From: Candidatus Latescibacterota bacterium
GTDB lineage: Bacteria; Latescibacterota; UBA2968
DNA length: 62,279 bases
Direction: 5' to 3'
NCBI GenBank assembly: GCA_022821275.1
Contig: JAJEDY010000068.1
Span: 1 to 62,279, forward strand
Position numbers and translations under genes: made by a program. A model generated the notes under the pieces. It had not been told where the DNA came from, did not search any database, and was given only the letters and a program-made list of their open reading frames with translations. Below, in pieces: positions 15,169 to 56,317 of the stretch; positions within the stretch are counted from its first letter, which is position 1; the number at the start of each line of letters is the position of its first letter.

Positions 15169-16797
15169 TTAGAACGTCGCACCACCAACGCGCTTGCGAA
15201 GCCGATTGCGAACCAGAATCGCCACCAGATTCAGAGCCAGCACAATTCCCATCAGCAACAGAGTCGTCGTATAGACCATGGGGCGAGCCGCCTCGACATT
15301 GGGCGACTGGAAACCCACATCGTAAATGTGAAAACCCAGATGCATAAACTTGCGTTCCAGGTGAAAAAAGGGCCAGATACCATCCACGGGTAATGAAGGT
15401 GCCAATTTCACAACGCCAGTAATCATCAGCGGTGCCACTTCGCCAGCGCCGCGCGCAATCACGAGAATAATGCCCGTGAGAATGCCCGGCAGCGCACCGG
15501 GCAAAACCACGCGCAAAATAGTCTGCAATTTGGTCGCCCCCAGTGCCAGCGACCCGGCACGCACATCACTCGGCACGGCAGAAAGCGCTTCTTCGGCTGA
15601 AACAATCATCACCGGCACCGTCAGCAATGCCAGGGTCAACGACGCCCACAGAATGCCGCCAGTGCCATACGTGGGCGTGGGCAACGCTTCGGAAAAAAAG
15701 AACTGATCGATACTTCCGCCAATACCGTAAACAAAAAATCCCAGCCCAAACATACCAAAAACAATAGAAGGTACACCCGCCAGATTATTAACCGCAATGC
15801 GAATCCCTCTAACTAAGATACCTTGCCTGGCGTATTCGCGCAAATAGAGCGCCGCCAATATGCCAAATGGCACAGCCGCCAAACTCATCAAAAAAACCAT
15901 CATAACAGTGCCAAAGATCGCGGGAAATATCCCACCTTCTGTATTGGACTCGCGGGGTTCATCGAATAAAAACTCCCCGATGCGCTCGCAATAAACGCCC
16001 GATTTTCCCAAAATCCCCAGTTGATTGGGACGATATGCACGCACGATATCGGCTGTGGCAATCTGCCGCACCTCGCCGCCAATTAGCCGCACATCTACGC
16101 GGTAAATCTCGTTGGCTGAACGCAATTGCGCCAGTTCGTCAGCCAATTGTTCATAAGCTTCCCAATAGGATCGGCTCTCTCGATCAATCGCATCAATTTC
16201 ATCGGCATCTCCACCGCCCAATTCTATCTCGCGTTTCTTTAGTCGCAAACTTTCGATTTGCCGATTTAAGTCACCAATCGCATCTTTTTCAATTTCCCGA
16301 ATCTGTTCGTGTCGCTCTCGCGTCTCATACAATTGTGCTTGCAACACATCCCAGGTGTTCGACACGCGGGTTTCACCTTCGTACAGAGCTTCGATAAACC
16401 CGTAAAAATTGCCCCACTCGCGCCGCTCAAAAACCACCGCATCTCCGGGATAATCCGTCGATTGAATATCCGATTCATCAATCCATTGAAAATCGCTGCC
16501 ATACACATCGCGATTGCCCACCTTGAGCTGAATGCGAAATTGCCCGGACCCCGTTCGGTTTGATGTGGGAATCTCCTGTTTGTCCCAGCGCTGTCCCAGC
16601 GCTTTCCGACCATCTTTGAGTACCACAGCTTCGATATCCGACGGCCAGAAAAATCCGGTACCATGGTACAAAACCAGCGCGACCAGCCCTATAACCATGA
16701 GCAAACAAAGTGCCAGCGCGCTGCCGGTCAACCAGATAAAAGGCACACCTGTTTTCCAAACATGTGCTGAAGGGCCTCTATTCAGTAAATTTTTCAC
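15169..16797 (-). CDS. pstA: Phosphate ABC transporter permease PstA, long form
   Basis: 542 aa, versus ~280-300 for the short PstA. The C-terminal ~290 residues are the canonical permease, with five to six membrane spans and the cytoplasmic loop EEALSAVPSDVRAGSLALGATKLQTI. The N-terminal part has one membrane span (~20-45) and then ~190 residues outside the membrane. This segment includes a charged, probably coiled-coil stretch (RERHEQIREIEKDAIGDLNR onward, ~160-235). Long PstA/PstC forms are known, for example in Pseudomonas. GTG at 16797 is chosen because GGAG lies 6 nt upstream; an in-frame ATG at 16803 lacks a site. The pstC stop is 16 bp upstream. Confidence 0.92.
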   Translation of the reverse strand: MKNLLNRGPSAHVWKTGVPFIWLTGSALALCLLMVIGLVALVLYHGTGFFWPSDIEAVVLKDGRKALGQRWDKQEIPTSNRTGSGQFRIQLKVGNRDVYGSDFQWIDESDIQSTDYPGDAVVFERREWGNFYGFIEALYEGETRVSNTWDVLQAQLYETRERHEQIREIEKDAIGDLNRQIESLRLKKREIELGGGDADEIDAIDRESRSYWEAYEQLADELAQLRSANEIYRVDVRLIGGEVRQIATADIVRAYRPNQLGILGKSGVYCERIGEFLFDEPRESNTEGGIFPAIFGTVMMVFLMSLAAVPFGILAALYLREYARQGILVRGIRIAVNNLAGVPSIVFGMFGLGFFVYGIGGSIDQFFFSEALPTPTYGTGGILWASLTLALLTVPVMIVSAEEALSAVPSDVRAGSLALGATKLQTILRVVLPGALPGILTGIILVIARGAGEVAPLMITGVVKLAPSLPVDGIWPFFHLERKFMHLGFHIYDVGFQSPNVEAARPMVYTTTLLLMGIVLALNLVAILVRNRLRKRVGGATF

Positions 16798-16813
16798 ATC
16801 CATCTCCAAAACA

Positions 16814-19051
16814 TCAAATCCTGCTATACTTTTCGCGCAAACGCTGCCGCACCACTTCTGCCAGTGTATTCACCAAAAAAGTAATCGCCGCCAGCAAAAC
16901 CCCTGTCAAAAACAACACGCGATAAAGCGTACCTTCATGGGGTGCTTCGGGAATCTCCACAGCGATATTGGCCGACATAGTCCGCATGCCATTAAAAATG
17001 GTCCAGTCCAAAATCGGCGTATTACCCGTAGCCATCAACACAATCATCGTCTCGCCCACAGCGCGGCCAAATCCGATCATAGTCGCGGAAAAAATACCCG
17101 GACTCGCCGTAGGCAACACCACGCGGATAGCTGTTTGCCAGGGCGTTGCACCAAGCGCGAGTGACCCGGCACGCAGATGCTGTGGGACACTCGATAGGGC
17201 ATCTTCACAGATCGTATAAATAATGGGTACCACGGCAAAACCCATTGCAAAGCCCACCACGAGACAGTTGCGCTGATCGTAGCGCGTACCCGCTGTTCCG
17301 AGCAGCCAGCTTTGAAAATTGCCACCAAACAAAAGCGATTCGGCTACTGGGCCGAGTGCAAACGACAAATAGAGCGTAAACAACGCGATACCCGCCAGCA
17401 AAGTTAAAATCCAGTGATCGGGGACTCTGCGGGCAAAATCTTCGGGTATCCGCCCCCAGCCCCAGGCGCACAGCACCACGACAATGGGCACACAGGGCAG
17501 CAACAACAACGCCCCGACGATTCTCGTTTCCAGCAACGGTGCCAACCACAAGCCAGCCAAAAAGCCCAGAATCACACTGGGAAGCGAGGCCATCAACTCA
17601 ACCACGGGTTTGACCACACCGCGCACGCTGGGAGAGGCAAATTCCGATGTGTAAATCGCCGCCAGAATAGCCAGAGGCAGCGCGAATAACATGGCGTAAA
17701 GTGTACCCTTAAAAGTGCCAAATATCAAAGGTACAATACTCAACTTGGGTTCAAAATCATCCGACCCACCCGTAGATTGCCACACGTATTGAGGCTCCGT
17801 ATATCCCTCGTACCACACCTTGCCAAAAAGCGTTTGCAACGTCACTTCGGGATGTGGATTTTGAAGATCGAAATCCGTCACCTGTCCCGACTTGCTCACA
17901 GCCAAAAAGCCATTTGTTTTTGGCGCAAAAGACAGCGTTTGGATGGCACCATCACCGGGCAATTGAAAAAACGTCTGTTCCGATGTCATATGATGCAATG
18001 CAACCACCCCCGACACATCGCCCGATAAAAACTGTTTGTCTCGAGCAGACGACGCCAGAGCAGTCACCGCCGCTGGATGAGACCGCAAAGTGTGGATCTT
18101 TTTGAACATCCTTTTATTATCACCCTCGTACGTCCTGACGGGCATCCAGACAGACACGCGGCCACCCACATCGCCCACGACGAGCGACACATCACCCAGC
18201 ACAAAATCCAGCGCAGTCACCCCCTGATCGGAAACCCGAAAATAATCCAACAATTTGGGCCTGGAACTCGCCCGTCCAACTTCCCATCGAAATACTTCAC
18301 CGCGATCTGTACCCACCAGAACATAGCGTCCCGATTTCGTCACAGCACCCACCCTGGCGCGCCCTTTGATGTCAGCGGCCAAATCGTACAGACGAACAGT
18401 TGTTTTGCCACTGCCCAAAAGACCCCGCTGTTTTTCGGAAATCCCCAAAACGAGCTGCCCGGAATCCGCAATACCAAGCACTGTACCGCGGGATTTCCCA
18501 TCGTGCCGAAATACGAGATGCTCAAGAGCCTCATCGGTTAGATTCATGGTCGATTCAACAGAAAAAGACGGCGTCACAATCTGCTTTCCCTCCGCATCGT
18601 AATCCACGGCAAAATTCACGCGACAACCCAGCATTGTACCATCGTCTAAACCCAAACCAACGTGCGTGTTATCCAGAGCGCGATAAGCCACCCGAATGCG
18701 CCGCCCCTGTAATTCGGGGGGATACACAGATTCTGTCACCGATTTTGTGCTCATATCCACGAAATCAATCCCCGCTTCGTGCACGACAAACATCACGGCC
18801 TGATAGGGATCAACCCCCGTACACAGGACGGGTTCACGGTGCGAAAAATCAAAAGTATGCACCCTGGACGCGCTCGGCTTCAAAAACAGGGGATAGGACT
18901 CCATCAGAACAAAAAGAAAAATACCCAGCACAGACAGGATCACCCCGATGCCGCCAGCAGTGATCACCCACTGTCCAGCGCGGTCCATCAGACGTGCCCC
19001 TGGCGTGATGCCGGGCAATTGTCGCTTTGATGTTGGTTCTGTGGGAAGTGC
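16814..19051 (-). CDS. pstC: Phosphate ABC transporter permease PstC, long form with beta-propeller-like insert
   Basis: 745 aa, far above the ~300 of short PstC. After one membrane span (~25-55) comes a ~370-residue periplasmic region with repeated beta-strand units resembling WD/propeller blades (GRYVLVGTDRGEVFRWEV, SLVVGDVGGRVSVWMPV, KQFLSGDVSGVVALHHM). A second half then carries the canonical permease helices and the loop EDALSSVPQHLRAGSLALGATPWQTA. The start at 19051 (MALPTEPT) is chosen over an in-frame TTG 36 nt earlier. It pairs with PstA to form the phosphate channel. The role of the propeller-like insert is unknown; sensing periplasmic ligand or PstS is possible. Confidence 0.92.
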   Translation of the reverse strand, partial: ALPTEPTSKRQLPGITPGARLMDRAGQWVITAGGIGVILSVLGIFLFVLMESYPLFLKPSASRVHTFDFSHREPVLCTGVDPYQAVMFVVHEAGIDFVDMSTKSVTESVYPPELQGRRIRVAYRALDNTHVGLGLDDGTMLGCRVNFAVDYDAEGKQIVTPSFSVESTMNLTDEALEHLVFRHDGKSRGTVLGIADSGQLVLGISEKQRGLLGSGKTTVRLYDLAADIKGRARVGAVTKSGRYVLVGTDRGEVFRWEVGRASSRPKLLDYFRVSDQGVTALDFVLGDVSLVVGDVGGRVSVWMPVRTYEGDNKRMFKKIHTLRSHPAAVTALASSARDKQFLSGDVSGVVALHHMTSEQTFFQLPGDGAIQTLSFAPKTNGFLAVSKSGQVTDFDLQNPHPEVTLQTLFGKVWYEGYTEPQYVWQSTGGSDDFEPKLSIVPLIFGTFKGTLYAMLFALPLAILAAIYTSEFASPSVRGVVKPVVELMASLPSVILGFLAGLWLAPLLETRIVGALLLLPCVPIVVVLCAWGWGRIPEDFARRVPDHWILTLLAGIALFTLYLSFALGPVAESLLFGGNFQSWLLGTAGTRYDQRNCLVVGFAMGFAVVPIIYTICEDALSSVPQHLRAGSLALGATPWQTAIRVVLPTASPGIFSATMIGFGRAVGETMIVLMATGNTPILDWTIFNGMRTMSANIAVEIPEAPHEGTLYRVLFLTGVLLAAITFLVNTLAEVVRQRLREKYSRI

Positions 19052-19202
19052 CATAATAAGAGATAAAACGCAAAAGGTGAGACGCAAGAGACATGGGCTG
19101 AGGGCTGGGGGGTTGGTCGCAGTTCCTCGCCTCTAACTGAGAACCGGATAGCCCTCTAACGTCTAACGTCCCACCTTTGAGATAGAGTATTTGGGTATCT
19201 AA

Positions 19203-21484: not shown

Positions 21485-21531
21485 ATCAGACAAATAGCGC
21501 AATTCCGTTGCATCTTCCCCCGGAGTGTGTT

Positions 21532-23649
21532 ATGGACCTCGGCGATACCAGTCTCTATTTTAACAGAGAACTTTCATGGCTGCGTTTTAACCAGCGCGTA
21601 TTACAAGAAGCCCGTACTCCCGACAATCCCTTGCTGGAACGGGTCAAATTCCTGGGCATCGTGGCCAACAACCTCGACGAATTTTTTGAAGTGCGCGTAG
21701 CGGGCCTGCTTCAGCAAGTAGAAGCGGGCATCTCCGACTACGGTCCCGATGGCCTCCTGCCCGAAGAACAATTTTCAGCCATCGCAAAAGAAGCCCATCG
21801 CATGGTCGAGGAACAATACGCCTGCTGGAATGATGAACTCCTTCCCGCATTGCGCGATGCAGATGTTCACATACGCACCATCAGCACACTATCCGACCGC
21901 GAAAAAGCCTTCCTCGACGACTATTGCCACGCAGAACTCTACCCGGTCTTAACCCCACTCACCATCAGCCCTGCACATCCCTTACCACGCCTGATCAACA
22001 AAGCCCTGTGCATCGCTCTTTTGCTCAAAAACCGCGAAGACGAAACACTGCTCGGCGTCGTGCAGGTACCCCGTCTATTGCCGCGCCTGATCCGCTTGCC
22101 CCGAGAAGAAGACAGCCAGCGCATCGACTTTGTCTTCCTCGCCGATATTGTCCAGGCGCACATTCCCGAACTTTTCCGGGGATATCAAATCCTCGACTCG
22201 GCTGCTTTCCGCATCACCCGAAACAGCGATCTCTACCTGGATGAAGAAGCAATCGACGACTTGTTGCTCGCCATTGAAGACGAATTGCAAAATCGGCGCA
22301 AAGGCGACACGGTCCGCCTCGAAATCGAAGCCGATGCCAGCCGGGCACTTGTCAAGCGCCTACAATCGACATACAGCCTCAAAAACAACCAGGTTTATCA
22401 GGTCAACGGACCGGTGAACCTCAACCGTTTGATGGGACTCTATAGCGCGACCCCCAGACCCGATTTGAAATATTCCCCCTATCACCCACCCGACCAGACG
22501 TATGAGGAAATCGATACCCTCTTTGACCAGATCAGACAAAAAGACATACTGCTCCACCACCCCTACGATGCCTTTACACCCGTTGTTCAATTCGTCAATT
22601 CGGCTGCAACCGATCCCGATGTGCTCGCCATCAAACAGACGCTCTATCGCACCAGCGAAGATTCGCCCGTTATCGATGCCCTGATCCGCGCAGCAGAAGC
22701 GGGCAAAGAAGTTACGGTGGTCGTTGAACTCAAAGCGCGATTTGACGAGGCATCCAATATTCGATGGGCGCGCCGCCTTCAGGATGCGGGTGTATGCGTC
22801 GTATATGGGGTTGTGGGCCTTAAAACGCACTGCAAACTCTCGATGCTGGTCAGGCGCGAAGCCAACAACGGGCTACGCCGCTACGCCCACATCGGCACGG
22901 GCAATTACAATCCCTCAACCGCCCGACTTTACACGGACCTGGGATTGCTCACAGCACGCGAAGACATCACAAATGATGTAGCCGAAGTTTTTAACCTGCT
23001 CACCACGCAATCTGCGCATCCCCAGGTCAGCAAATTTCTCATTGCACCTTCTACCATGCTCGATTCCATCCTCAAAAAAATCGACCGCGAAATCGACCAT
23101 GCCAGCAAAGGACGCACAGCCCGCATTGTAGCGAAAATGAATTCACTTCAAGACCCCAAAGTCATTCGCGCGCTGTATCGCGCATCGCAAAACGGCGTAC
23201 AAATTGACCTGATTGTGCGCGGTATATGCTGCCTGCGTGCGGGTGTCCCCGGTATAAGCGACAACATCAGAGTGCGCAGCATCATCGGGCGATTTCTGGA
23301 ACACAGCCGCATCTACTACTTTGAAAATGACGGGAATCCCGATGTGTACATTGGCAGTGCGGATTGGATGCCTCGAAATTTGCGCCGGCGCGTAGAAACG
23401 CTTTGCCCCATCGAAGATCCGGACCTGATTGCACGGATAAAAACAGAACTCCTCAGCACCTGCTTTGCCGACAATATCAAATCGCGCGAACTCCTGCCCG
23501 ATGGCACACACCGTCACATTGCACCCGCCCAAAATGAACCCGCATTCTGCATGCACGACATGCTCATGAACCTTTCCCTGGGTGAACCCGTCGATATCCC
23601 CGACTTTTTCCAAACACCATCCTCAATCGAATCAACCGCTGCTACTTAA
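21532..23649 (+). CDS. ppk1: Polyphosphate kinase 1
   Basis: 705 aa, family size. PPK1 segments occur in order: N-terminal LYFNRELSWLRFNQRVLQEA, middle FVNSAATDPDVLAIKQTLYRT, the catalytic phospholipase-D-like histidine region GLKTHCKLSMLVRRE with HIGTGNYNPSTARLYTDLGLLT, and the C-terminal SADWMPRNLRRRVETLCPI. It makes inorganic polyphosphate from ATP, reversibly. The ATG at 21532 has GGAG 6 nt upstream; an in-frame ATG at 21508 lacks one. It is divergent from the phosphate porin and pst operon, so uptake and storage genes lie side by side. It has its own consensus promoter. Confidence 0.97.
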   Translation: MDLGDTSLYFNRELSWLRFNQRVLQEARTPDNPLLERVKFLGIVANNLDEFFEVRVAGLLQQVEAGISDYGPDGLLPEEQFSAIAKEAHRMVEEQYACWNDELLPALRDADVHIRTISTLSDREKAFLDDYCHAELYPVLTPLTISPAHPLPRLINKALCIALLLKNREDETLLGVVQVPRLLPRLIRLPREEDSQRIDFVFLADIVQAHIPELFRGYQILDSAAFRITRNSDLYLDEEAIDDLLLAIEDELQNRRKGDTVRLEIEADASRALVKRLQSTYSLKNNQVYQVNGPVNLNRLMGLYSATPRPDLKYSPYHPPDQTYEEIDTLFDQIRQKDILLHHPYDAFTPVVQFVNSAATDPDVLAIKQTLYRTSEDSPVIDALIRAAEAGKEVTVVVELKARFDEASNIRWARRLQDAGVCVVYGVVGLKTHCKLSMLVRREANNGLRRYAHIGTGNYNPSTARLYTDLGLLTAREDITNDVAEVFNLLTTQSAHPQVSKFLIAPSTMLDSILKKIDREIDHASKGRTARIVAKMNSLQDPKVIRALYRASQNGVQIDLIVRGICCLRAGVPGISDNIRVRSIIGRFLEHSRIYYFENDGNPDVYIGSADWMPRNLRRRVETLCPIEDPDLIARIKTELLSTCFADNIKSRELLPDGTHRHIAPAQNEPAFCMHDMLMNLSLGEPVDIPDFFQTPSSIESTAAT

Positions 23650-23766: not shown

Positions 23767-26700
23767 TTAAGGGGCAGGCACCTTAAAAAAGAGCCTGTAC
23801 ATCACGGGCACGACCAACAGTGTTAAAATCGTGGCAAAAAGCAATCCAAAGATAATTGTGATCGCCATAGGTTCCCAGATAACACCACCGCCAATCCATA
23901 GCGGAATCAACCCCAAAGTCGTGGTTGCCGTTGTAAGCATAATGGGGCGAAACCTCTGTTGAGCAGCAGCCACAATCGCATCTTGTTGTGTGCGCTTAAA
24001 CTCATCCATTTCAATTTGAATGCGATCAATCAAAACAATTGCATTGTTGATCACAATGCCAAATAGAGAAATAACCCCTAAGAAAGGCATGAAGCCAAAA
24101 TAGGAGCCGGTCAACAACAACCCCAAAATCACCCCTATTAAGCCCAAGGGAATGGTCAGCAAAATGATCAAGGGTTTGCGGATGGAATTGAATTGACCGA
24201 TGAGCAAGAGGACAATAATAAAAAACGACATGGGTAGATAGTTCATAATCGCCCCAATATTTTTTGCACTTTCTTCTGCTTCCCCTCCCAATTCATAAGC
24301 ATATCCGGAAGGCATCTCTTGTTGTTCCAACCATAATTCCATTTGATTCATAATCTCTGCAGCAGTATATCCAGTTTGCAGTCCGCTCGTAACCGAAATC
24401 GTTCTGGTCAAATCTCGCCGCAAAATTTTTGCGGCTTGCCATTCAATTTTGAGATCTGCAACCTGCTTGAGAGGCACGTTCTCGCCGCTTTGCTGTACAT
24501 AGACAGGCAGGCTCTCCAGATCCTGAATGCGCCGGCCTTCAACCTGATTATTTCTCATCACAATTGGAATAATTTTATCGCCTTCCCGAAACTGCCCAGT
24601 TTGCAAACCAATCAGCGCGGTTTGCAAAGATACGGCAATGTCCTGACTCGTCACACCTGCAAGCCGCGCGCGGTGTTGATTTATATCAACAATCAATTTT
24701 TTTGTACGTGGCCCCCAGCTATCGCGAATATTTTTTGTTCCCTCAATGCTGTGCAATTTGGCCTCAATTTTTTCCACCAATTGGTAGAGTACCTGTGGAT
24801 TATCTCCGGAAATGCGAATTTCGATGGCGTCGCCGCCACTGCCAGCACCAGACAATCGCTTCACCTTGCTTTTTGCTTCCGGTAGATTTTGAAAGATGAA
24901 ATTATCAACAGAATCAATTACAGGCTGATTGACAGCGGAAGAACTGGTATTGAGCAAAATATGTGCAGAACTGGGCAAAGCTTCTGGCGCAGTGTAGCCC
25001 AGATCGTATTTGGGCGCACCTTCGCCGATATATGAAGAAAACGAAATCACCCCTTCCGCACGACCTTCCTCAACCAGCAGTTCTTCTATAATGTGGTTCT
25101 CTATGGCTGTGACGACCTCATCTGTTCTGTCGATGGTACTACCCAGGGGCAGGTCTATGGTAACGGTGACCAGGGCGCGTTCGCTATCTGGAAAAAAGAT
25201 GAAGGGAATGTAGCGAAAGCACCACAAGGCGATGGCGAAGACAACGACCACACCGCTCAAAAATAGAAAAGGTCGGCGTAGATTGGTCACCAGAATTTTC
25301 TCGTAAAATATCTGTAATCTATTCGGTCCGGTATGTTCTAACTTTGGTTTTACTTTCAAAAAATAGATACACAAAAGCGGTATCAATGTCATTGAGAGGA
25401 GCCAGGAAGAGAGAAGTGCTAAGCTTACCACCACGAATAATTCGCCCATGATTTCGCCCATGACCGATTCTGCCAGATAGAAAGCGAGAAATGCGGCTGA
25501 TGTCGTCAATGAGGATATGAGCAATGGCATAAATAACTCTCTGGCAGACGTAATCGCCGCATCAATAGCTTTTGCACCCTTTTCCATTTTGACAATAATA
25601 GATTCGGAAACAACAATGGCATTATCGACCAGCATGCCGAGCGCGATGATCAGAGAAGCAAGCGAAACCTGGTTCAGCCCCAGGCCAGATTGCGACATCA
25701 ACAATATCGTAGTAATAATTGCCATCGGAATCAAAGAAGCCACAATCAAACCTGTGCGGAACCCGAGAAAGAGCAACATGACGAGGAGCACCACGGTCAC
25801 AGCCTGGTATAGATTTCCGAGGAAGTTCTTCACGGAATCATCTACAACCTCATCCTGAGAAGCAGCTCTAATAATTTGGAATCCCCAGGGCAAAACAGTC
25901 TGGTAATATTCAAGACGCGCATCAATTTCTTTTCCCAATTCAATAATGTTGCCGCCTTTTTTGAGATTGACGCCAATGGCCAATCCCGGTTTTCCATCAA
26001 TGCGTACTATTGATTTTTGAGGTTCGACATAGCCGCGATAAATATTGACAATATCGCCCAGAAATACCAATTCGCCTTCTCCCGAAGAAACAATGATCTC
26101 TTTTATGTCTTCTATCAGGTCAAAATTTCCCGTCGGCTCCAGGATAATCCGCTCATCACCAACTTCAATATCGCCGCCAGAAAAAACGATATTGGTACTG
26201 GAAATAATATTTTTTAATTTTTGTTGCGTAAGCCCCAATTCCGCCAGGCGCGCATTGTCGTAATCGAGATAAACGCGCTCCTCACGAGCACCCACAATTT
26301 TTATTTTTGCAGCATTTGGCAATTTAATTAAATCATTGCGGATGGCGTCTGCTGCTTCCTTTAATTCTGCATACGTAAACCCGTCTGCCGTTAGCCCCAG
26401 GATGATACCATAAACATCTGACAGGCCCTCGTCGTTGAAATTCACACTTGTAACACCAGAGGGCAGTTGGTTGCGAACCGCATCGACTTTTCGGCGCAAC
26501 TTATCAAAAATGGGCTGAAGATCGCGTACGCTATCCTTGAGAAATATCGTAACAATCGATACACCTGTGCGATTTTCGCTCTGGATATAATCTACTTCAG
26601 GTACTTCCTGACACACTTCTTCGATTTTATTTGAAATGAGCAGTTCCATCCGTTGCGGGCTGGCACCTGGAAAAGTTGTCACGACATTGGCGACACGCAC

Positions 26701-26823
26701 CAAAAATGGCGGCATATCATCTCGTGGCATCTGTTCGAAAGCGGAAAATCCTGCCGCGAAAATTACAAATAACAGGGACAAAGTGACGACATTATTTTTA
26801 ATGGCAAATTCTGTGATCTTCAT
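23767..26823 (-). CDS. RND efflux transporter, inner-membrane pump subunit
   Basis: 1018 aa, family length. It shows 12 membrane spans in the RND arrangement, with two large periplasmic loops after TM1 and TM7. The TM4 proton-relay motif reads GMLVDNAIVV, where AcrB has two adjacent Asp; only the first is kept. N-terminal FAIKNNVVTLSLLFV and MPRDDMPPFLVRVANVVTTFPGASP are typical of hydrophobe/amphiphile efflux members. The operon order is binding-domain-TolC fusion, lipoprotein adaptor, then this pump, 12 bp after the adaptor. Substrates are probably organic compounds rather than metals, but cannot be named. Confidence 0.93.
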   Translation of the reverse strand: MKITEFAIKNNVVTLSLLFVIFAAGFSAFEQMPRDDMPPFLVRVANVVTTFPGASPQRMELLISNKIEEVCQEVPEVDYIQSENRTGVSIVTIFLKDSVRDLQPIFDKLRRKVDAVRNQLPSGVTSVNFNDEGLSDVYGIILGLTADGFTYAELKEAADAIRNDLIKLPNAAKIKIVGAREERVYLDYDNARLAELGLTQQKLKNIISSTNIVFSGGDIEVGDERIILEPTGNFDLIEDIKEIIVSSGEGELVFLGDIVNIYRGYVEPQKSIVRIDGKPGLAIGVNLKKGGNIIELGKEIDARLEYYQTVLPWGFQIIRAASQDEVVDDSVKNFLGNLYQAVTVVLLVMLLFLGFRTGLIVASLIPMAIITTILLMSQSGLGLNQVSLASLIIALGMLVDNAIVVSESIIVKMEKGAKAIDAAITSARELFMPLLISSLTTSAAFLAFYLAESVMGEIMGELFVVVSLALLSSWLLSMTLIPLLCIYFLKVKPKLEHTGPNRLQIFYEKILVTNLRRPFLFLSGVVVVFAIALWCFRYIPFIFFPDSERALVTVTIDLPLGSTIDRTDEVVTAIENHIIEELLVEEGRAEGVISFSSYIGEGAPKYDLGYTAPEALPSSAHILLNTSSSAVNQPVIDSVDNFIFQNLPEAKSKVKRLSGAGSGGDAIEIRISGDNPQVLYQLVEKIEAKLHSIEGTKNIRDSWGPRTKKLIVDINQHRARLAGVTSQDIAVSLQTALIGLQTGQFREGDKIIPIVMRNNQVEGRRIQDLESLPVYVQQSGENVPLKQVADLKIEWQAAKILRRDLTRTISVTSGLQTGYTAAEIMNQMELWLEQQEMPSGYAYELGGEAEESAKNIGAIMNYLPMSFFIIVLLLIGQFNSIRKPLIILLTIPLGLIGVILGLLLTGSYFGFMPFLGVISLFGIVINNAIVLIDRIQIEMDEFKRTQQDAIVAAAQQRFRPIMLTTATTTLGLIPLWIGGGVIWEPMAITIIFGLLFATILTLLVVPVMYRLFFKVPAP

Positions 26824-26835
26824 AGTTTTTTTCCA

Positions 26836-27924
26836 TTATTTTAACAATTTCACCGTGATGCCATCTCTAAGACTTTCTACACCTGCGGTTGCGACGAGTG
26901 CACCATTTTGCAATCCCTCAATGATTTCAAATCCCTCCTGGGATAATTCACCTATCGTCACCTTTTTTTTCTGCGTGATGGCAAGGCCATTTTCCTTTTC
27001 TGTCAATGTAAATACGAAATTGCCGTCGATATCTTCTCCCACAGCACCAACCGGAACAATTAATTTTATTTCTGATGCGCGATTGGGAGCAGAAAAATTA
27101 AATGTTACATCTGCCGACATGCCTGGTCTGATGTCGCTGGTTGGGTGTTCAACTGTTACAATCACCGGATAGACAGACGATTGGAGACCAGTGGCAAAAG
27201 ATACTTCCGAAATCGTCCCATCAAAAATTTTATCGGATAGAGACGAAAATTTCACAGAGACTTTATCGCCGATTTTAACGCGAGAGATATATGCTTCTGG
27301 CATACCCACACTGACTTCGATATCATCTTGAGACGTGATTGTAACAACGGCCTGACCCGGACTAATCTGCTCATTTTTTTCTATGGCAACCTGTGAGATA
27401 ATACCATCCATCGGTGCGTCAAGCGCGTAATAGTCCAGCTCTCGTTTCTTCAGGTCTGCATTTCTCTTTTCTGTGTTATAGGCAGAATTTGCCGAAGCAT
27501 ATCTGTCTTTCGCAACCTCGTATTCACTTAAAGACACATTATTGTTCTCGTACAACTCTTTTACCCGGTCCAAATTTGATCGCGCATTGTCTTTTTGAAT
27601 CTCTGCTTTTCTCAAAGTTTCGAGTGCCTTTTCATAGTTGAGTTGTGCATCTGAGTTGTCAATGGAAGCGAGCTTCATGCCTTTGTTGACCTTTTCGCCA
27701 ATTTTGGCATTCACCGCCTCGACAATACCCCCAACGCGAAAGCTCAACGTTGATTCGGTGCCAGCCCTGGACACGCCAGAAAAAATTCTGCTTTGTTCGC
27801 TACCAGAAAGAAAAACTTGCTGATAGCGAACAGGCCTGATAATTTCCTGTTTTTCGGGTTTTTCACCACCACAGGAAAAGAACAAAACTGTGCAAAAAAT
27901 GGTCAATATGTGTTTTGGTTTCAT
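26836..27924 (-). CDS. RND periplasmic adaptor lipoprotein
   Basis: 362 aa. The start at 27924 (MKPKHILTIFCTVLFFSCGG) has AGAGG upstream and opens with a lipoprotein signal, LFFS-C, giving a lipidated N-terminal Cys. The membrane-fusion protein pattern follows: a biotinyl-lipoyl half-motif (GIVEAVNAKIGEKVNKGMKL), an alpha hairpin (~95-160), the second lipoyl half (LDAPMDGIISQVAIEKNEQI) and a beta-barrel region. It bridges the pump and the TolC-like channel in the same operon. The frame extends upstream into the TolC stop, but this start fits better. Confidence 0.92.
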   Translation of the reverse strand: MKPKHILTIFCTVLFFSCGGEKPEKQEIIRPVRYQQVFLSGSEQSRIFSGVSRAGTESTLSFRVGGIVEAVNAKIGEKVNKGMKLASIDNSDAQLNYEKALETLRKAEIQKDNARSNLDRVKELYENNNVSLSEYEVAKDRYASANSAYNTEKRNADLKKRELDYYALDAPMDGIISQVAIEKNEQISPGQAVVTITSQDDIEVSVGMPEAYISRVKIGDKVSVKFSSLSDKIFDGTISEVSFATGLQSSVYPVIVTVEHPTSDIRPGMSADVTFNFSAPNRASEIKLIVPVGAVGEDIDGNFVFTLTEKENGLAITQKKKVTIGELSQEGFEIIEGLQNGALVATAGVESLRDGITVKLLK

Positions 27925-27958: not shown

Positions 27959-30328
27959 TCAATGGGCGTGCTGATTAAAATAAACCTCAAAGCGATTGAG
28001 GAAATTTTGTTGCTCCTCATCTGTGCTCAACAAACTGAATTCTCCCACAGCACGCTCGGTTTTTAACACGCTGATCAAAAATTCATACTCCGAATCCAGT
28101 TTTTGCAATTTCGCGCTCAATGCCGCGTTTTGTGCATCGACCAAATTGACGATAGAAACGCGGCCTTGCGCGTATTCATCCTGTACCAGTGCCAGACTCT
28201 TATCCGCCAACTCAGCCGATCTTTGAGAGGACTCAAGATCAACCGTTTTGACAGTTAAATCCAGAATTGCAGCCCGCACGCGCAACTCCAGCATCTGCAT
28301 CAATCGCGCTTTTTGATCCTCGAGTTTGCCAATTTCGATCCGCGTCCGTTGAATATTCGCGCGGATTGCACCGCCCTGGAAAAGTGGCAGAGAAGCATTG
28401 AGGCTCACACGCCAGGGATTATCAATTGGATTGACGCCAGCGACATTTGAGCCAACACCGCTGCGGGAAAGGACCTGCTGCCATTCTGCACCCAGGCCAA
28501 GGGTTGGTACAAAACGTGCAAGTTCCAATGATCGAAGCGATCTTTTGAGCGCATTGATATTTGCCTCAACTTGCTGAATTTCAGGGGTATTGAGCCGCGC
28601 TTCTTCAATGAGAAAATCCGTATAAATACTCAAAGATTTGGGCGTATCAATATATTCTCTCACAGTGTGGAGATAACCAAACAGACTATCGGACAACGTA
28701 GTCTCGCGTGTAATAAATGCCTCATCAATAGGGCGATTGAGCAATTGATTTAATTGGATATTTGCCAATTCCACATTGTTATTGGCTACTAGCGATGACG
28801 TATTGACCGCAATCAATCGACTTTCCCAGCGATAGACATCCGAACGTCCGGAATAACCGATAGCTTCCCTCTGTCTGGCAATTTCGAGATTTCTTTTGGT
28901 GAGTATCACATTGTCTTGCTGTATTTCGCGCCCTGTTTTGGCTTTTAATACCTGAAAATAAGCCACGGCCGCATCCAGAACAATGTCGAGTTTCAATGTT
29001 TCGTATCGGTGTTGTGACGCACGCAACAGATCTTTTTGAATAGACACATTGCCTATGGCCTGTTGAGAAAAAATTAATTGCTCAATTCCCGCTGTTGCAG
29101 TGATGCTTCGCTGTGGTTGCAGTCCAAAAGAGTTTTCAGCGCGTTTTTTGTCGATCTGCACCCCTGTAGCATAAAAGCTCAAAGAAGGAAAAAGATGGGT
29201 GCGCGAGAGGGCCACATCTTTTTGCGCGGCATTGACAGTACCTTCCTGGATTTTTAGCTCGAGGTTGGCGTTCATCGCTTCTCGCATCACCTGAATTAAC
29301 TCCACGGTACGTACACCTTCCGGAACAAATTCATTGATCAATTCAGCTTGAGTAAGAACGGTAAATTTGGGTGAGAATCCAATTTTTTGGGCGGTTTGCA
29401 TATTGAGCGTCAAATTCTCTTCAAAGCTCATGTGAACAGGCAAATGCGCGGCATCTTCGCCGTTGAGAATCGCTTCGACATGTAGAGAAATGCGCCGAAT
29501 GATTCTGGAGAAATTTTCCTCTGGCGCAATGGCAGCTAAAACGCCCTGCTGAACATCGGCGACAGAAAAACCAAAAGAAGGCATCCCGCTCTCATTTACA
29601 GCGTTAATAAATGCGCGTTTCTCAGTACCTTCATGGGGTCCCAAATACCCAATATAGACAGCATCAATATCCTGACGGGCAACCATAGACAGGATTTCAA
29701 GTTTGTCAGTAAATGGAATCAATACCAATGAAGTTCGATTTTTTTTCATGACATCTTCTACAAAAACCATATATCCGTCAAGAAAACCCGACACTTCGCC
29801 GTAAAAAATAATGCCTACCTTTTGATATGGAAAAATGTCGTAAAAAACATCCAGATCTCTTTCCAAAGATCGCTGAGACCAGAGAATATAGGTGAGATTA
29901 TGCACGTCCGACCTATTTTTTTTTGGCGTGGGTAAGCCCTGCAATTTGGGATCAAAAATGCCCAGTGCAATAACGGGTTTTTGAAAGGTGCTCTGTTGTG
30001 CGATTACCGAACCGTTCAGGATCCCAAAACCTATGATCAGGTCTATATCAGGGTCTTGCATTAGATGTCGGTAGTTTTTGGCGGCAACATCTGCAGACCA
30101 ATCTGCACTGAGAATATTGTCTTCCAAAATTTGGATATGAAATTTTGCACCCAAAAGTGCGTCTAATTCGCGCTCTAATTGCTCAATCAGCATATTTACC
30201 CGCTGTTGCTTAGCATCTACAAGTACGCCAATCTGGATGTGCGTTTTTTCGCTTTGAGCACAAATTTTGGTTGCGAAAAATAAGAAAAAAAACAAAACAC
30301 CAAACGCAAAACACCTTATGTTATTCAT
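27959..30328 (-). CDS. TolC-family outer-membrane channel fused to an N-terminal periplasmic-binding domain
   Basis: 789 aa; a normal TolC protein is ~450. A signal peptide ends at CAQ (~24). Residues ~30-325 have the two-lobed layout of ABC_sub_bind/TrpX-like binding proteins (IQIGVLVDAKQQRVNMLIEQL; DLIIGFGILNGSVIAQQ; QKVGIIFYGEVSGFLDGYM; IDAVYIGYLGPH). Residues ~345-789 are a TolC/OEP domain with two repeats of paired long helices (QEGTVNAAQKDVALSRTHLFPSLSF; YAQGRVSIVNLVDAQNAALSAK). AAGGA lies 6 nt before the ATG at 30328. It is cotranscribed with an RND adaptor and pump, so the binding lobe probably sits at the channel's periplasmic mouth. The fusion is in one uninterrupted frame. Confidence 0.88.
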   Translation of the reverse strand: MNNIRCFAFGVLFFFLFFATKICAQSEKTHIQIGVLVDAKQQRVNMLIEQLERELDALLGAKFHIQILEDNILSADWSADVAAKNYRHLMQDPDIDLIIGFGILNGSVIAQQSTFQKPVIALGIFDPKLQGLPTPKKNRSDVHNLTYILWSQRSLERDLDVFYDIFPYQKVGIIFYGEVSGFLDGYMVFVEDVMKKNRTSLVLIPFTDKLEILSMVARQDIDAVYIGYLGPHEGTEKRAFINAVNESGMPSFGFSVADVQQGVLAAIAPEENFSRIIRRISLHVEAILNGEDAAHLPVHMSFEENLTLNMQTAQKIGFSPKFTVLTQAELINEFVPEGVRTVELIQVMREAMNANLELKIQEGTVNAAQKDVALSRTHLFPSLSFYATGVQIDKKRAENSFGLQPQRSITATAGIEQLIFSQQAIGNVSIQKDLLRASQHRYETLKLDIVLDAAVAYFQVLKAKTGREIQQDNVILTKRNLEIARQREAIGYSGRSDVYRWESRLIAVNTSSLVANNNVELANIQLNQLLNRPIDEAFITRETTLSDSLFGYLHTVREYIDTPKSLSIYTDFLIEEARLNTPEIQQVEANINALKRSLRSLELARFVPTLGLGAEWQQVLSRSGVGSNVAGVNPIDNPWRVSLNASLPLFQGGAIRANIQRTRIEIGKLEDQKARLMQMLELRVRAAILDLTVKTVDLESSQRSAELADKSLALVQDEYAQGRVSIVNLVDAQNAALSAKLQKLDSEYEFLISVLKTERAVGEFSLLSTDEEQQNFLNRFEVYFNQHAH

Positions 30329-30350: not shown

Positions 30351-30617
30351 TCACCTTTCAGGCGTTCCCTCCGTTGGATTTTGGCTACCACTTAAATGCA
30401 ATCCAAATCCCAGAAACCCGAGCACCAAACACAACGCCAATAGCCATCTGGGAAGGCTCAAAGTCCAGAGCACCGCGGCCATCACCATTAAGAAAAGAAA
30501 CGGTACAAAATCCTGTCCTTCGTGTTCTTCCAAAAACGGCAGTATAAAAAAAAGCAAAACCACTGAAAAGGCAAGAACAGTGTATTTGTAGTGAGAAAAG
30601 TGCTCCCAGAATTTCAA
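30351..30617 (-). CDS. Small membrane protein at the head of the RND operon
   Basis: 88 aa, about 60 of them in three hydrophobic segments (TVLAFSVVLLFFILPFL; FVPFLFLMVMAAVLWTLSL; WLLALCLVLGFLGFGLHL). The frame opens with TTG, with AAAGG 6 nt upstream, and ends 22 bp before the TolC-fusion start. The sequence resembles the N-terminal membrane part of bacterial two-pore-type ion-channel proteins, so it may be a truncated relic. It may also be a genuine small subunit of the efflux system. The composition is that of a real membrane protein. Confidence 0.5.
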   Translation of the reverse strand: MKFWEHFSHYKYTVLAFSVVLLFFILPFLEEHEGQDFVPFLFLMVMAAVLWTLSLPRWLLALCLVLGFLGFGLHLSGSQNPTEGTPER

Positions 30618-30693
30618 ATCTGGACCTTTACTATTTGATCTCTCCCTGCTGGCCCTCTCTTGCTCCTCTTTCCATTCTCAGCACGATCCGCAA

Positions 30694-44889: not shown

Positions 44890-46133
44890 GGATGATTCTC
44901 CTTTTCAGAATGATCGTCACCCAAATGGATCAGTCTGATATAGCTTGAACCCGCATTCTCACCGGATTTAAAATGAATGACCCAATCGCCAATCACGACA
45001 GGCTTAGCCGGTGACATTGCATCTTTCAAGAACTGCTCTCGCGTCAACTTATCGCCCATATTCCCCAACACCTCCGTTTTGTATTCCCGCGGCAATGACG
45101 CTGGCAGCGCGCCCGTCAACTCACCGGCCATACGATCCAACACAGCGATGAGATATCGGCCCAATATATAACCCTCCAGACATACCTCATTAAATGGGTG
45201 CTGATGGTCTTCCGGTGACAATTTTACGGCTTGTTGGAACTGTCGCACGACATGACTATTCACATTTTGAGCGTCTGGCATCACCTCGGTCACCACGATC
45301 CTATCACTCGGCGAATGGATCCGCTTCTCCAACTCGCGGGATAAAACAAAGGACAGATTGGCTATGATGTATTTATGTCCCAGAGAATTGGCCAGATTGA
45401 TAATTTCCGCATTGGCGGCATAGGCTCCCACGATCAGGATGGCGTCCAGATCGGCTTTATCCAATGCGAACAGACTCGCATGGACGGCATGTGTATTCCG
45501 CGAGTAGGAGGTCTTCGCCAGTATGGGAAGGTCGCGGCTATCGAGAACCTCCTTGTAGTTTCTCAAGACCGAACGCCCGAACGCATCATCCTGATATATA
45601 ATGCCGAAACGCCTTTTGCCGAGATCGTCAATCATGTGATGCACCTGTTCATAGATCTCGTCAAAGTAGCCAGCTCTCAGATTGATGATGTGTGGATACT
45701 TTTTAGCCTCGCGCAAAAAGTCGGCCCCCGTAAACGGTCCCACAAAGGGAATCTGAGCCGTTCGCAGCACTGGAACAATGCGCTTGGCGGTCGGCGTTCC
45801 CACGCCGCCGATGACGGCGAACACATTGTTTTCGGAAACGAATCTCTCTGCATTCGCGGCTGCCAGATCAGGCTCGTACGCGTCATCTAAAGAAACGAGC
45901 CTCAACAACCTGCCATACACTCCGCCGCGATCATTCTGTTCCTGAAAAGCGGTCAAAATGCCAGCGCGATACCACAAACCCAAATTTTTGTTTGGACCCG
46001 AAAAGCAAGCGGTTTGTCCGAACACAATCGTACTATCAGTAACTCCCGGAGCCGCCGCCGAGGGCAGGGTGAGCACCAACAGGATGAGACAGGAAGCTAT
46101 GCCCATCGATATGGACTTATTGCGCAGACTCAC
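44886..46133 (-). CDS. Type-1 periplasmic binding protein (branched-chain amino-acid type), orphan
   Basis: 415 aa. GTG at 46133 is chosen: AAGGAG lies 7 nt upstream. It overlaps the end of the HflK-like gene by 17 bp. A signal peptide ends near SAAA (~28). Peripla_BP_6 features follow: IVFGQTACFSGPNKNLGLWYRAGILTAF, ENNVFAVIGGVGTPTAKRIVPVL, FGIIYQDDAFGRSVLRNYKEVL and LDAILIVGAYAANAEIIN. Such proteins feed ABC importers or act as sensors, but no permease or ATPase is near. It is coupled instead to SPFH proteins and a multi-pass membrane protein. Three Cys are not spaced as a metal site. Confidence 0.88.
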   Translation of the reverse strand: MSLRNKSISMGIASCLILLVLTLPSAAAPGVTDSTIVFGQTACFSGPNKNLGLWYRAGILTAFQEQNDRGGVYGRLLRLVSLDDAYEPDLAAANAERFVSENNVFAVIGGVGTPTAKRIVPVLRTAQIPFVGPFTGADFLREAKKYPHIINLRAGYFDEIYEQVHHMIDDLGKRRFGIIYQDDAFGRSVLRNYKEVLDSRDLPILAKTSYSRNTHAVHASLFALDKADLDAILIVGAYAANAEIINLANSLGHKYIIANLSFVLSRELEKRIHSPSDRIVVTEVMPDAQNVNSHVVRQFQQAVKLSPEDHQHPFNEVCLEGYILGRYLIAVLDRMAGELTGALPASLPREYKTEVLGNMGDKLTREQFLKDAMSPAKPVVIGDWVIHFKSGENAGSSYIRLIHLGDDHSEKENHP

Positions 46134-47439
46134 TTTTTTTCTCCTTATCCATGGTTTTGCTGCTGTCCTGCATGCTTTCCGCAGCTTTCGTCTCAATCAC
46201 CGCTTGCTGGTCTGCCTGTCGCACGTTGGTCTGGGGATGGGTTGTCGTATGCTCATGAGAGAATACACTGGGCATGTCGAATATCAGTGATCTCATATTG
46301 GCAACTCTCTGGTGATGGCGTTCCGCGCGCCTTTTGTGGAATTGACCGTCCAGCAAGTGTTTGTCCTCATTAACATTTTCAAAAGTATGCGTATCCTGCT
46401 GCCGCGCCGTTGAAAAAGAAGGTCTATCGACGAGCTGACCGTCAACCGGGGGCGCGTCCAGCAACATATCTGCGGGTGTATGCCCCGCGAGACCTTCTAT
46501 CATGTTGATATCGATCGTCGCCTCGTTGCGGGGATTGACCGCAGACAGACTCGCTTCTGAAAAGATCGTACGCATGCGCTGCCAGTACCGCGTGATAGCC
46601 ACTTGCGTTCGTTGACTTTTGTACTCGGCGAGCAGAGCGCGGAATGCGTCGGCACTGCTTTGAGCCTGCACAATGCGTTCTCGCCCCCTGGCGTGGGCAT
46701 CCATCACCACTGCCTCCGCCTGCCCCCTGCTGTGCGCGAGCATCTTCTCCCGCGTGCGGTTGGCATTGCTCTCTGCTTGCGCACGCTCGGCAATCGCATC
46801 GTTGACATCCCGGAATGCCGCAATCGTTTCTGCAATTGGGCTTATATCGACGATGTTGAGAGAGACAATCTCTATGCCAACGTCATATTCTTCAAGAAGG
46901 TCGGTGATCTTAACCAACAGGTGGTGTTGAATGATATTGCGGTTGGAAGTCAGGATCAGATCAATAAAATTCTGCCCCATGATATTGATCAACTCTTCCC
47001 GCAAGAGCATGGAGACCACCTCGAGAGGATCGACAGATTTGTACAGAAAATTTCTCAGATTATCTATCCGGTATTGAAGGGCGATATCCACCTCAAACAG
47101 GTTTGTATCCCCGGACAATATTGTAAAATTGGCGGTGCCACCGCTCTTACTGGCTATCTGATGCTGGACGATCCGCTTGACCTTGCGAATATGAACTTCG
47201 TCGATAATGGGGATGCAGTAGCGTATCCCGGGACCTATGTCCATACTGACCACCTTCCCGAAACGCAGAACCACGGCCTCTTCCTCTTTCTTTACAATAT
47301 AGAAACCGCTGCCCAACACCACAGCGACGACTATCGCGACGAGCACCGTGATGATTCGCCTTTTGGGATACTGCCCAACGAAATCAAAGGCGGCGTAAAT
47401 CATGCGCGTACTGCGCGGTAATGGTTGTTGTTCATTCAT
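46117..47439 (-). CDS. hflK: HflK-like SPFH/band-7 protein with long His-rich tail
   Basis: 440 aa. One N-terminal membrane span (~28-50), then an SPFH domain (~50-235: EEEAVVLRFGKVVSMDIGPG; EVDIALQYRIDN; LREELINIMGQ) and an Ala/Glu-rich helix (RAQAESNANRTREKMLAHSRGQAEAVV). HflK/HflC pairs cap FtsH protease in other bacteria. The last ~110 residues are unusual, polar and His-rich (HKRRAERHHQ, SHEHTTTHPQ), with no family match. It sits 15 bp after the HflC-like gene and overlaps the binding-protein gene. No ftsH is nearby, so its partner is unclear. Confidence 0.88.
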   Translation of the reverse strand: MNEQQPLPRSTRMIYAAFDFVGQYPKRRIITVLVAIVVAVVLGSGFYIVKKEEEAVVLRFGKVVSMDIGPGIRYCIPIIDEVHIRKVKRIVQHQIASKSGGTANFTILSGDTNLFEVDIALQYRIDNLRNFLYKSVDPLEVVSMLLREELINIMGQNFIDLILTSNRNIIQHHLLVKITDLLEEYDVGIEIVSLNIVDISPIAETIAAFRDVNDAIAERAQAESNANRTREKMLAHSRGQAEAVVMDAHARGRERIVQAQSSADAFRALLAEYKSQRTQVAITRYWQRMRTIFSEASLSAVNPRNEATIDINMIEGLAGHTPADMLLDAPPVDGQLVDRPSFSTARQQDTHTFENVNEDKHLLDGQFHKRRAERHHQRVANMRSLIFDMPSVFSHEHTTTHPQTNVRQADQQAVIETKAAESMQDSSKTMDKEKKSESAQ

Positions 47440-50663: not shown

Positions 50664-50716
50664 AGCCCTCACCTCCTCTGATGGGAAGCATAGTATTTTG
50701 ACCACAGATAATTCAA

Positions 50717-50764: not shown

Positions 50765-53700
50765 TTACTGCCGCCGCGTTTCAATCCATTCGTAGATCAC
50801 TGGCAGCAACACGAGTGTCAGCAAAGTCGAAGTGATCAAACCACCGACCACTACCGAAGCGAGTGGACGCTGCGTTTCGGCACCAACACCCGTCGCCAAC
50901 AACAAGGGTACCAATCCGAGAATGGACGTACTCGCAGTCATCAAAACGGGGCGCAAACGCAACTCCGCTCCCCGTCGCACGGCCTCTGCGACACCGAGTT
51001 CTTTTTCGCGCAACTCATTGATAAAACTCACCAGCACAATACCGTTCAACATCGCCACACCAAAAACCGCGATAAATCCAATCGCAGAGGGCACCGACAC
51101 GTATTGCCCACTGATAAAAAGGACCACCATCCCTCCAATTGCTGCAAACGGCACATTGGCAATAATCAGCGCGGCGTACTTAACCGAATTAAATGCAGTA
51201 TAGAGCAATACAAAAATAAAGAAAATCGTCAATGGCACAATCACCGCCAAACGCGCCAACGCCCGCTGTTGGTTCTCGAACGCGCCACCCCATTCGATCC
51301 AATAGCCCGGAGGCAAGTCAATCTGCGCATCGATAGCCGCATTGGCATCGCGCACAAAACCATCGACATCGCGCCCCCGCACATCCATCTGGATCACTGC
51401 GTAACGCTGCAATTGCTCGCGGCGCACAAAAGAGTAGCCTTCCGCAACGCTGACATCTGCAACAGTCGCAAGAGGAACAATCGCACCATCGCTTGTTTTC
51501 AATGGAATGCGCTGAATCGACTGCACCGACGCTTTTGATCGGTCATCAAATCGCGCCGTAATATCGAATCGGCGCACGCCGTCAATCATAGTCGTAACTG
51601 GCTCATTGCCGATGCCAGTGCGAACAACGGACAACACATCGTCCGCATTCACCCCAAATCGGGCGAGTTGCTCGCGCTTGACCTGAATACGGATCTGCGG
51701 CTTGCCGACATTGGCCTCAATCGAGAGATCCGCGACACCTTCAACTTCGGCAATGACATCTTTGACCTCCTCGCTCAACTGATCGAGCACTGCCAGATCC
51801 CCACCGTAAATCTTGGCGGCAAGCGTGGCGCGAACCCCCGAGATCAGTTCCTCTACGCGCATCTGAATCGGCTGGGTAAAAGCGATAACAGCCGACGGTA
51901 CCACCACTTCCAACTCCTCGCGCATGGCCTCGGCAAGGTCTTTGATATCGCGGTCTCCGGGCCATTCGCTCTCGGGCTTGAGTGCCGTATAAATCTCCAT
52001 ATAATTGGCATCGGCGGTTTCGCCTTTCTCGGCACGACCAATCATTGCCACCGTGGTTTCGACCTCTGGGAACTTCGACAGCGCATTCTCGATATCCTTG
52101 GAAATCTCAATTGAATGCTGGAGCGAAGCCGAAGGTATCGAAGTCACGCGCCACATAATCGACCCTTCCTGCAGTTGCGGCATGAACTCTTTTCCAAGAA
52201 AGGGGAACAGCGCCATGCTCGCAACGAGCAAACCCACGGCACAGCCAACCACTACCTTTCTATTCGCCAGAGACCAGGAAAGCAAGGATAGATAGCGCGG
52301 TTTAATGACACGTATGAGCCATGTTTCGCGTTCTCTTTGCGGTTTTAATAACAAAGCCGCAAGCACGGGAATCAGGGTCAACGCGAGCAATAAACTCCCA
52401 CCCATGGCAAACGTGATATTAAACGCCATCGGCTTGAACAGCTTGCCCTCCAGTCCCTCGAGCGCAAACAAAGGCAGAAATACCACCACAATAATCAAGA
52501 TGGCAAAGGTCATCGGATTCACGACTTCGCGGGCAGCAGCCAATACCGCATCAGTGCGGTTGACCTCCTCCGTCTCTGCCCTGCGTTCTGCCATAACGCG
52601 AAATGAATTCTCCACGACGACCACTGCACCATCGACAATCATGCCAATACCAATGGCGAGGCCGGCAAGTGACATGAGATTGGCCGAAAGGCCCGCTTCA
52701 TCCATGAACACAAATGCAATGAGCATTGTGAGCGGAATAGAAACAATCACAACCACTGCGGGTCGCCATTCGCCGAGAAATAAAAACAGAATAACACCCA
52801 CCAGAATCGCGCCTTGAAATAGTGCATTCGTAGCCGTACCCACTGCTTTTTCAACGAGATCGGTACGCTCATAAATGGGTCGCAGGACGACGCCATCTGG
52901 CAGCGACTGATCGATAATGGCGACCTTTTCCTTCGTCGCCTCAACCACCCGGGCGGCATTCTCACCGATGCGCGAGAGCACCATCCCAAGGACGACTTCC
53001 TTGCCATCGCGTGTCACAGCACCAAAACGAAGTGCGCCCCCCTGGCGGATATCGGCGATATCGCGCAAATATACCGGCGCACCGCCTTCGACCTTAACCA
53101 CCATATCGCCGATGTCCCGCTCGTTTCTGACCAGACCCAGGCCGCGCACGAGGTACTGCTCTGAGCCGAGATTGACGTATTGACCGCCAACCTGGCGGTT
53201 ATTGGCCTCAATCACTTCCATGACATCGGTGAAAGTCAGGTCGTATTTGATGAGACTCAGGGGATCCATAACAACCTGAAATTGTCGCTCCTGGCCCCCC
53301 CATGAAATGACATCATCAACGCCGGAGGCCGTTCGCAAGATCAAACGCACATTCCAGTCGTGCAGCGTCCGCAGGTCCATATCGGTAATCGCCGCATTGA
53401 GCTTTTCATCCGCCCGTTCCAGTGTGTACCAGAAAACCTGACCGAGTCCGGACGAGTTGGGACCCATCTCTGGCGTGCCATAACCTTCTGGGATGCGCTC
53501 CCCTACCTCCTGCAACCGCTCCATCACGAGACGCCGCGCAAAGTAGATATCCATGTCGTCTTCGAAATAGACGGCGACATAGGACAAGCCGAAGAGACTC
53601 ACAGAGCGAATCTCTTTCACCTTCGGCAACCCGGCCATGCTGGACTCGATGGGAAAAGTGAGAAGTTGCTCCACATCCTCAGCGGCAAGCCCGGGAGACT

Positions 53701-53854: not shown

Positions 53855-53863
53855 GCAGTTCTC

Positions 53864-54967: not shown

Positions 54968-55002
54968 CAGGGCCTCCAATACGGTTCTTTGTGTGTTGTA
55001 AT

Positions 55003-56256: not shown

Positions 56257-56317
56257 CAATCATCCTCCTGATGGTGACAATCAAAAGTAATCCGAAAAAT
56301 TTATCGCGAAATGTATA

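Follow-up and report, generated by a model that had tools for sequence, protein, structure and literature searches.

A TolC-type outer-membrane channel fused to a binding-protein-like domain in Latescibacterota and other bacterial phyla

TolC-type channels are thought to be passive until they are opened by an adaptor. According to the accessible sections of a review in Chemical Reviews (PMC8277102), helix H1 of TolC belongs to the equatorial belt, at half the height of the tunnel and on the outer side of its wall, the lipid anchor of OprM starts at the equatorial belt, and belt loops help to recruit the adaptor. Only recently was it recognized that this belt can be occupied, when the lipoprotein YbjP was found on the equatorial belt of E. 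coli TolC (eLife, 2026; PMC13082787, PMC13095208). In the available excerpts of these two papers, one of them gives three YbjP per TolC trimer (3:3) and suggests that YbjP anchors or positions the channel while gating stays unchanged. Here, we describe a gene that encodes an outer-membrane export channel and a binding-protein-shaped front domain as one polypeptide. It is located on contig JAJEDY010000068.1 of a Candidatus Latescibacterota bacterium (assembly GCA_022821275.1), the whole analyzed stretch of which (62,279 nucleotides) is referred to as the window.

Architecture of the fused gene and its operon

The fused gene occupies positions 27959–30328 of the minus strand, the strand having been missing from the original prediction, and encodes 789 residues in one open frame (ATG at 30328, stop codon at 27961–27959). 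A ribosome-binding-like AAAGGA was read from the sequence 5' of the ATG (30340–30335). Judged by the hydrophobic start of the translation, residues ~1–24 (30257–30328) form a putative type I signal peptide with no lipobox, whose cleavage site was placed by eye, and the fusion would be exported via this ordinary signal peptide. Farther downstream on the same strand follow a two-lobed ABC_sub_bind/TrpX-like domain (residues 29–328; 29345–30244), a short linker of ~13 residues, bounded by the end of the 3LKV match and the start of the TolC match (residues 329–341; 29306–29344), and a complete TolC channel (residues 342–789; 27962–29305).

Both domains had been predicted from the sequence, with residues ~30–325 read as ABC_sub_bind/TrpX-like and residues ~345–789 as a complete TolC, and the HMM searches proposed at that time were significant for the two families. 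In Pfam, OEP (PF02321) matched the fused protein in two stretches (5e-42), and ABC_sub_bind (PF04392) matched residues 71–328 (5.6e-8; 32.8 bits versus a cut-off of 25.9). TolC-type models of NCBIfam matched as well, whereas the TrpX model NF041285 reached 28.9 bits versus an equivalog cut-off of 390. The front domain was also matched to 3LKV by sequence (E 6e-5). The alignment of the channel with mature E. coli TolC starts at residue 1 of the latter, residues 342–344 of the fusion corresponding to TolC residues 1–3.

An AlphaFold monomer of the window protein was only of moderate quality (mean pLDDT 66, pTM 0.43; linker pLDDT <50). Residues 29–328 of this model matched the TrpX-like proteins 3LKV, 3LFT, and 6HNI (Z 18.3, 18.2, and 17.8, respectively), and the match to 3LKV (rmsd 4.0 over 280 residues) places the front domain in the two-lobed type I binding-protein fold. 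Residues 342–769 matched TolC (Z ~23) and contained the long paired helices H423–490 and H651–720 as well as four barrel strands at low pLDDT (383–391, 407–415, 609–615, and 639–647). A weaker model (pLDDT 59.8) was obtained for a diverged relative below the PF04392 cut-off (L041). Its best full-length matches were again TrpX-like proteins (6hnj, Z 16.6, 266 residues), and its lobe 2 also matched a single-lobe Rhodothermus protein.

The fused gene is followed on the same strand by genes for a periplasmic adaptor and an RND pump, as the original prediction had stated, with gaps of ~35 bases between fusion and adaptor and ~12 bases between adaptor and pump. The adaptor (26836–27924, minus strand; likely start 27924), an RND membrane-fusion protein that is possibly a lipoprotein (FFSC), was identified by TIGR01730 (223 bits, cut-off 94.9), PF13437, and PF16576. 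The pump (23767–26823, minus strand) matched PF00873 (1.2e-172), MexK (2.4e-155), and 6vej (7.6e-153). Channel, adaptor, and RND pump in a row constitute an RND tripartite exporter operon, and the fused protein would be the outer-membrane channel of a dedicated exporter of this kind. The other flank of the fusion is a sulfatase gene, and neither importer permease nor ATPase genes flank the fusion in the window. Just upstream of the fusion, 30393–30656 (minus strand) encodes the first ~88 residues of an Ion_trans_2 channel gene, the pore part of which is missing; this gene is longer in two genomes of the same genus, G035 (L079:832–1542) and G038 (L081:7917–8672).

The window contains further transport-related genes. 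A second, ordinary RND operon (50765–56259, minus strand) encodes an unfused TolC (55003–56259), an adaptor (53864–55006), and a pump (50765–53854) and is adjoined by a MatE-family gene (56364–57746). A single frame at 48354–50705 (minus strand) combines an ArsP_1 permease with an SPFH/Band_7 domain, near which a second Band_7 gene is located (46117–47439). Two consecutive BPD_transp_1 permeases are encoded at 15169–19087 (minus strand), the longer of which (16814–19087, 757 aa) has a WD40-like propeller region ahead of its permease part, and a polyphosphate kinase gene (21508–23649, plus strand) lies near this pair.

Distribution, operon conservation, and origin of the fusion

A full-length fusion was found in 13 of 64 Latescibacterota genomes, comprising the window genome, G035, and 11 more, with the coiled coil being incomplete in one case (G018, L014). 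In a fourteenth genome (G038) only a 128-residue N-terminal fragment of the front domain is left (L081:7019–7897). This remnant adjoins a transposase-like frame, and the sulfatase-like and dehydrogenase-like genes upstream of it are arranged as in the window (all three labels by reading of the sequence). Among 395 Bacteroidota genomes, sampled evenly from a larger group and searched with at most two candidates scored per genome, 17 contained a full-length fusion and one more a fusion truncated where its contig stops; the matches that followed were ordinary TolCs, with a drop from 428 to 134 bits. A scan of named genomes with a single sequence returned no matches, while the same kind of scan with an alignment yielded 11 loci, ten of them from records titled Latescibacterota or Gemmatimonadota and one from a Flammeovirgaceae record (Bacteroidota); several records of Latescibacterota bear the Gemmatimonadota title. 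Fusions were also present on a plasmid of Sulfuricurvum kujiense (L043; 96% of the query covered) and, with a shorter front part that Pfam does not recognize, in plasmid records of Cetobacterium somerae. The Sulfuricurvum gene sits behind a TetR-family gene.

That the fused frame is an assembly artefact or a chance frame fusion has a practically negligible probability, considering that the same architecture recurs in these Latescibacterota and Bacteroidota genomes. An assembly join, which the original prediction had named as a possible refutation, is excluded because G035 carries the architecture on its own contig at 75% identity and the 11 other genomes of the phylum share it. The fusion, whose frequency had been left to be checked, is a recurrent, real, and widespread variant of the export machinery that occurs in at least three bacterial phyla.

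This family is mostly hidden from annotation, the front domain of most members being below the Pfam cut-off. Only three of 16 fused proteins scanned against Pfam passed the PF04392 cut-off (the window protein, L003, and L043), and in a phylum-wide PF04392 search only the fusions of the window and G035 reached the report limit. Nevertheless, a front-domain profile pooled from 18 fused proteins, with the three that pass the Pfam cut-off left out, matched four standalone ABC_sub_bind proteins of the phylum with a probability of 96.2% over 300 columns. Profiles of small subgroups, which make for a weak comparison with the standalone binding proteins, gave 62.6, 64.8, 10.1, and 1.6 for the Bacteroidota groups, 12.2 for the main Latescibacterota group, and 0.2 for Cetobacterium. 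The front part of the Cetobacterium proteins is thus a putative, unproven TrpX-like fold.

The operon structure is conserved too, which for the RND neighbour had been a proposed check. Of 34 loci, 30 have an adaptor and an RND pump directly behind the fusion, namely the window and G035, nine of the ten other intact Latescibacterota loci, 17 of 18 Bacteroidota loci, and both Cetobacterium loci. Among the exceptions, the contig ends before the adaptor in L037 (Latescibacterota), the pump is broken in L080, and neither adaptor nor pump lies beside the fusion in L091 (Bacteroidota). In Sulfuricurvum, an adaptor, an RbbA-like ABC protein, and an ABC permease are found in place of the RND pump. Because the partner can be an ABC pump, this locus suggests that the front domain acts for the channel and is not tied to a single type of pump. 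Genes beyond the operon had no shared theme (10 proteins scanned of 92 neighbours listed).

In all nine genomes searched, the pump closest to that of the window was the pump of the fused operon, followed by a distant runner-up (for example 1178 versus 290 bits in G042). Pumps of this clade were detected in 13 of the 64 Latescibacterota genomes, 11 of which also possess the fusion, in ten cases within one operon. The contig of G048 stops inside the adaptor, and G025 encodes the clade adaptor and pump with no channel gene before the adaptor. By eye, a large sensor-kinase-like membrane protein precedes this adaptor–pump pair in G025 (L146:3–1733). In Bacteroidota, with at most two candidates scored per genome, pumps with >570 bits were present in 18 genomes. 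The fusion occurs in 17 of these, whereas the remaining one (G413) encodes an unfused TolC on the opposite side of the pump gene. The pumps of the fused operons thus form a clade of their own, which is inherited together with the fusion.

In a tree of the TolC halves, the 34 fused sequences were located on one side of a branch with a support of 100, versus 29 unfused sequences on the other. The tree was calculated by a quick method, and its unfused sequences had been chosen from the same genome sets by their similarity to the fusion (30 were read, and L020 was left out as too short). After omission of the partial sequence L098, identities were calculated for all pairs of 33 fused proteins, and those of the front half correlated closely with those of the TolC half (r = 0.975, 528 pairs), with mean identities of 29% and 36%, respectively. 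The separate branch of the fused TolC halves is consistent with one old fusion event. The window and G035 are separate from the other Latescibacterota fusions in the tree, most of which group among those of Bacteroidota. Transfer of the fusion between phyla is therefore likely.

Position and possible function of the front domain

The TolC part would trimerize, and three domains with a binding-protein fold would then surround the channel. As residues 342–344 match TolC residues 1–3 and helix H1 lies in the belt, we infer that the front domain is located at the equatorial belt, outside the wall, roughly halfway down the periplasm and far from the periplasmic mouth. The original prediction had instead suggested that the lobe could capture the substrate at the periplasmic mouth, from where the exported compound would be fed to the channel or the pump. 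A binding-protein fold on a channel with adjoining pump genes would suit this function, but RND pumps load from their own pockets and the same domain is also paired with an ABC pump. Moreover, the lobe is tied by a linker of only ~13 residues to TolC residue 1, in the belt and outside the closed wall (PMC8277102, accessible sections). Substrate capture at the mouth is thus very unlikely.

All 33 fused proteins compared lack a lipobox according to a simple pattern, and another kind of anchor is therefore plausible. The reading that we tentatively prefer, and that in our estimate falls somewhat short of being probable, is that the fused domain is a built-in belt partner, which keeps the channel in place and promotes the docking of the cognate adaptor, perhaps tuned by a ligand. 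The domains would hold the channel between the outer membrane and the peptidoglycan, analogous to YbjP on E. coli TolC and to the lipid anchor of OprM, and closure of the lobes on a ligand or a wall component may tune positioning or docking. The single clade of fused TolC halves, the correlated identities of the two halves, the low dN/dS of the front domain (see below), the conserved operon with its specific pump clade, and the ABC pump as an alternative partner fit this reading. Against such a belt function stands that the domain's position is predicted from its attachment point, with an AlphaFold model that is a monomer of low confidence in the linker, and that a plain anchor need not be a two-lobed domain of 300 residues under purifying selection. 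Furthermore, the clade pump of G025 has no fused channel beside it, and the fusion of G245 has no pump beside it. In the excerpts available, the authors of the YbjP studies regard a signalling role as unsupported and report that TolC reaches the outer membrane without YbjP.

The conservation of the front domain bears on whether it binds a ligand. Comparison of the window with G035 yielded a dN/dS of ~0.23 (0.126/0.559) for the front domain and of ~0.19 (0.168/0.892) for the TolC part, which points to purifying selection on the front domain like that on the channel. Across the 33 fused proteins (L098 again omitted), N144 and N309 are invariant, R278 is conserved in 32, and Y147 in 30; the family-wide invariant positions fall in the stretch between the lobes, and the N144/Y147 loop reads NxTG in 3LKV. 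An acidic position of lobe 1 (126) is D in 23 of the 33 proteins. An Asp in lobe 2 is important in type I binding proteins. It is present in 3LKV and in the proteins at L099 and L101, but is absent at positions 228–230 in 33/33 fused proteins (two are gaps). According to the available part of the CD0873 literature, from which only part of the contact residues could be compared, the side-chain preference of TrpX-like proteins is set by two positions, A246 and Y262 of 3LKV (PMC6816091). These positions align with S255 and F273 of the fusion and vary freely (n = 33). Because of the low dN/dS, the variable side-chain positions, and the missing lobe-2 Asp, the front domain is maintained and yet does not appear to form a TrpX-type amino-acid pocket.

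This pattern can be read in two ways. A decayed binding protein might serve as an inert spacer or peptidoglycan contact that binds no ligand. The lack of conservation at the pocket positions, the divergence of most relatives past Pfam detection, and the shortened lobe 2 of the Cetobacterium versions (which lack ~50 residues) are in line with such a role, but purifying selection near that on TolC and the invariant positions between the lobes make it unlikely. Alternatively, the domain could function as a Venus-flytrap sensor that closes on a periplasmic ligand and thereby switches the opening of the channel, as the original prediction had also suggested, or the docking of the adaptor, so that export would be controlled at the outer membrane. 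The retention of both lobes in the window protein and L041, the frequent D126, the N144/Y147 loop shared with 3LKV, and a dN/dS about as low as that of TolC all fit this possibility. The freely varying side-chain-selecting positions, the missing lobe-2 Asp, and the incomplete lobe 2 in Cetobacterium speak against it, and we regard such ligand gating as possible but doubtful. The more specific version, in which the three Venus-flytrap domains of a TolC trimer respond to a compound in the periplasm and determine when adaptor and pump engage the tunnel, appears slightly more doubtful still. If it were true, a ligand-gated exit duct would mean that the channel itself regulates efflux, and does so at the outer-membrane end.

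The main support for a sensing role, circumstantial as it is, comes from standalone relatives of the domain. Eight standalone PF04392 loci were found in the phylum, and the neighbours of four were scanned against Pfam. Three of these four lie between a TonB-receptor gene and a gene for a HAMP-containing sensor, not beside an ABC importer, whereas the fourth (L107) lies beside an importer permease. The sensor and TonB-receptor neighbours suggest that the family serves more than import at these loci. The cassettes, from three genomes (L099, L100, and L101), consist of a TonB receptor, an ABC_sub_bind protein, and an sCache-HAMP sensor. The sensors of L099 and L100 have histidine kinase domains, and the frame in L101, which was followed in part, contains PAS.

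Comparison with known systems

Searches of an open-licence literature collection returned no description of the fusion. The genes themselves already carry annotations, which read substrate-binding protein in Sulfuricurvum and TolC in Cetobacterium, and it seems that only the fused architecture has gone undescribed there. It defines a channel clade in at least three phyla that carries a covalent binding-protein-like domain where the belt should be and is accompanied by its own pump clade. Belt function and ligand control would thereby become directly testable in one polypeptide.

Like other TolC/OprM factors, the fused protein has a complete OEP pair, a TolC fold, and an adaptor and pump encoded downstream, but it adds a binding-protein domain of 300 residues in front and forms its own clade. 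By sequence, the closest solved relatives of the window pump are MexK and 6vej (the latter presumably TriC), and the channel partners of these pumps are ordinary outer-membrane factors. With the TrpX-like proteins VC_1101 (3LKV), SP1069 (3LFT), and CD0873 (6HNI) the front domain shares the two-lobed fold (Z ~18) and a PF04392 score above the cut-off; unlike them, it is linked to a channel and lacks an ABC importer, the side-chain pocket, and the lobe-2 Asp. Eukaryotic receptor channels (ionotropic glutamate receptors) also carry the same broad fold on a channel (Z ~11 with the L041 model), but this is a resemblance in layout only, as the channels are unrelated. In the TolC–YbjP complexes (9tg4, 9v52), as far as the source texts were available, an accessory component likewise occupies the belt, where the fused domain would be expected with one copy per protomer. 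YbjP, however, is a separate lipoprotein, whereas the domain of the fusion is covalently attached and has a TrpX-like fold.
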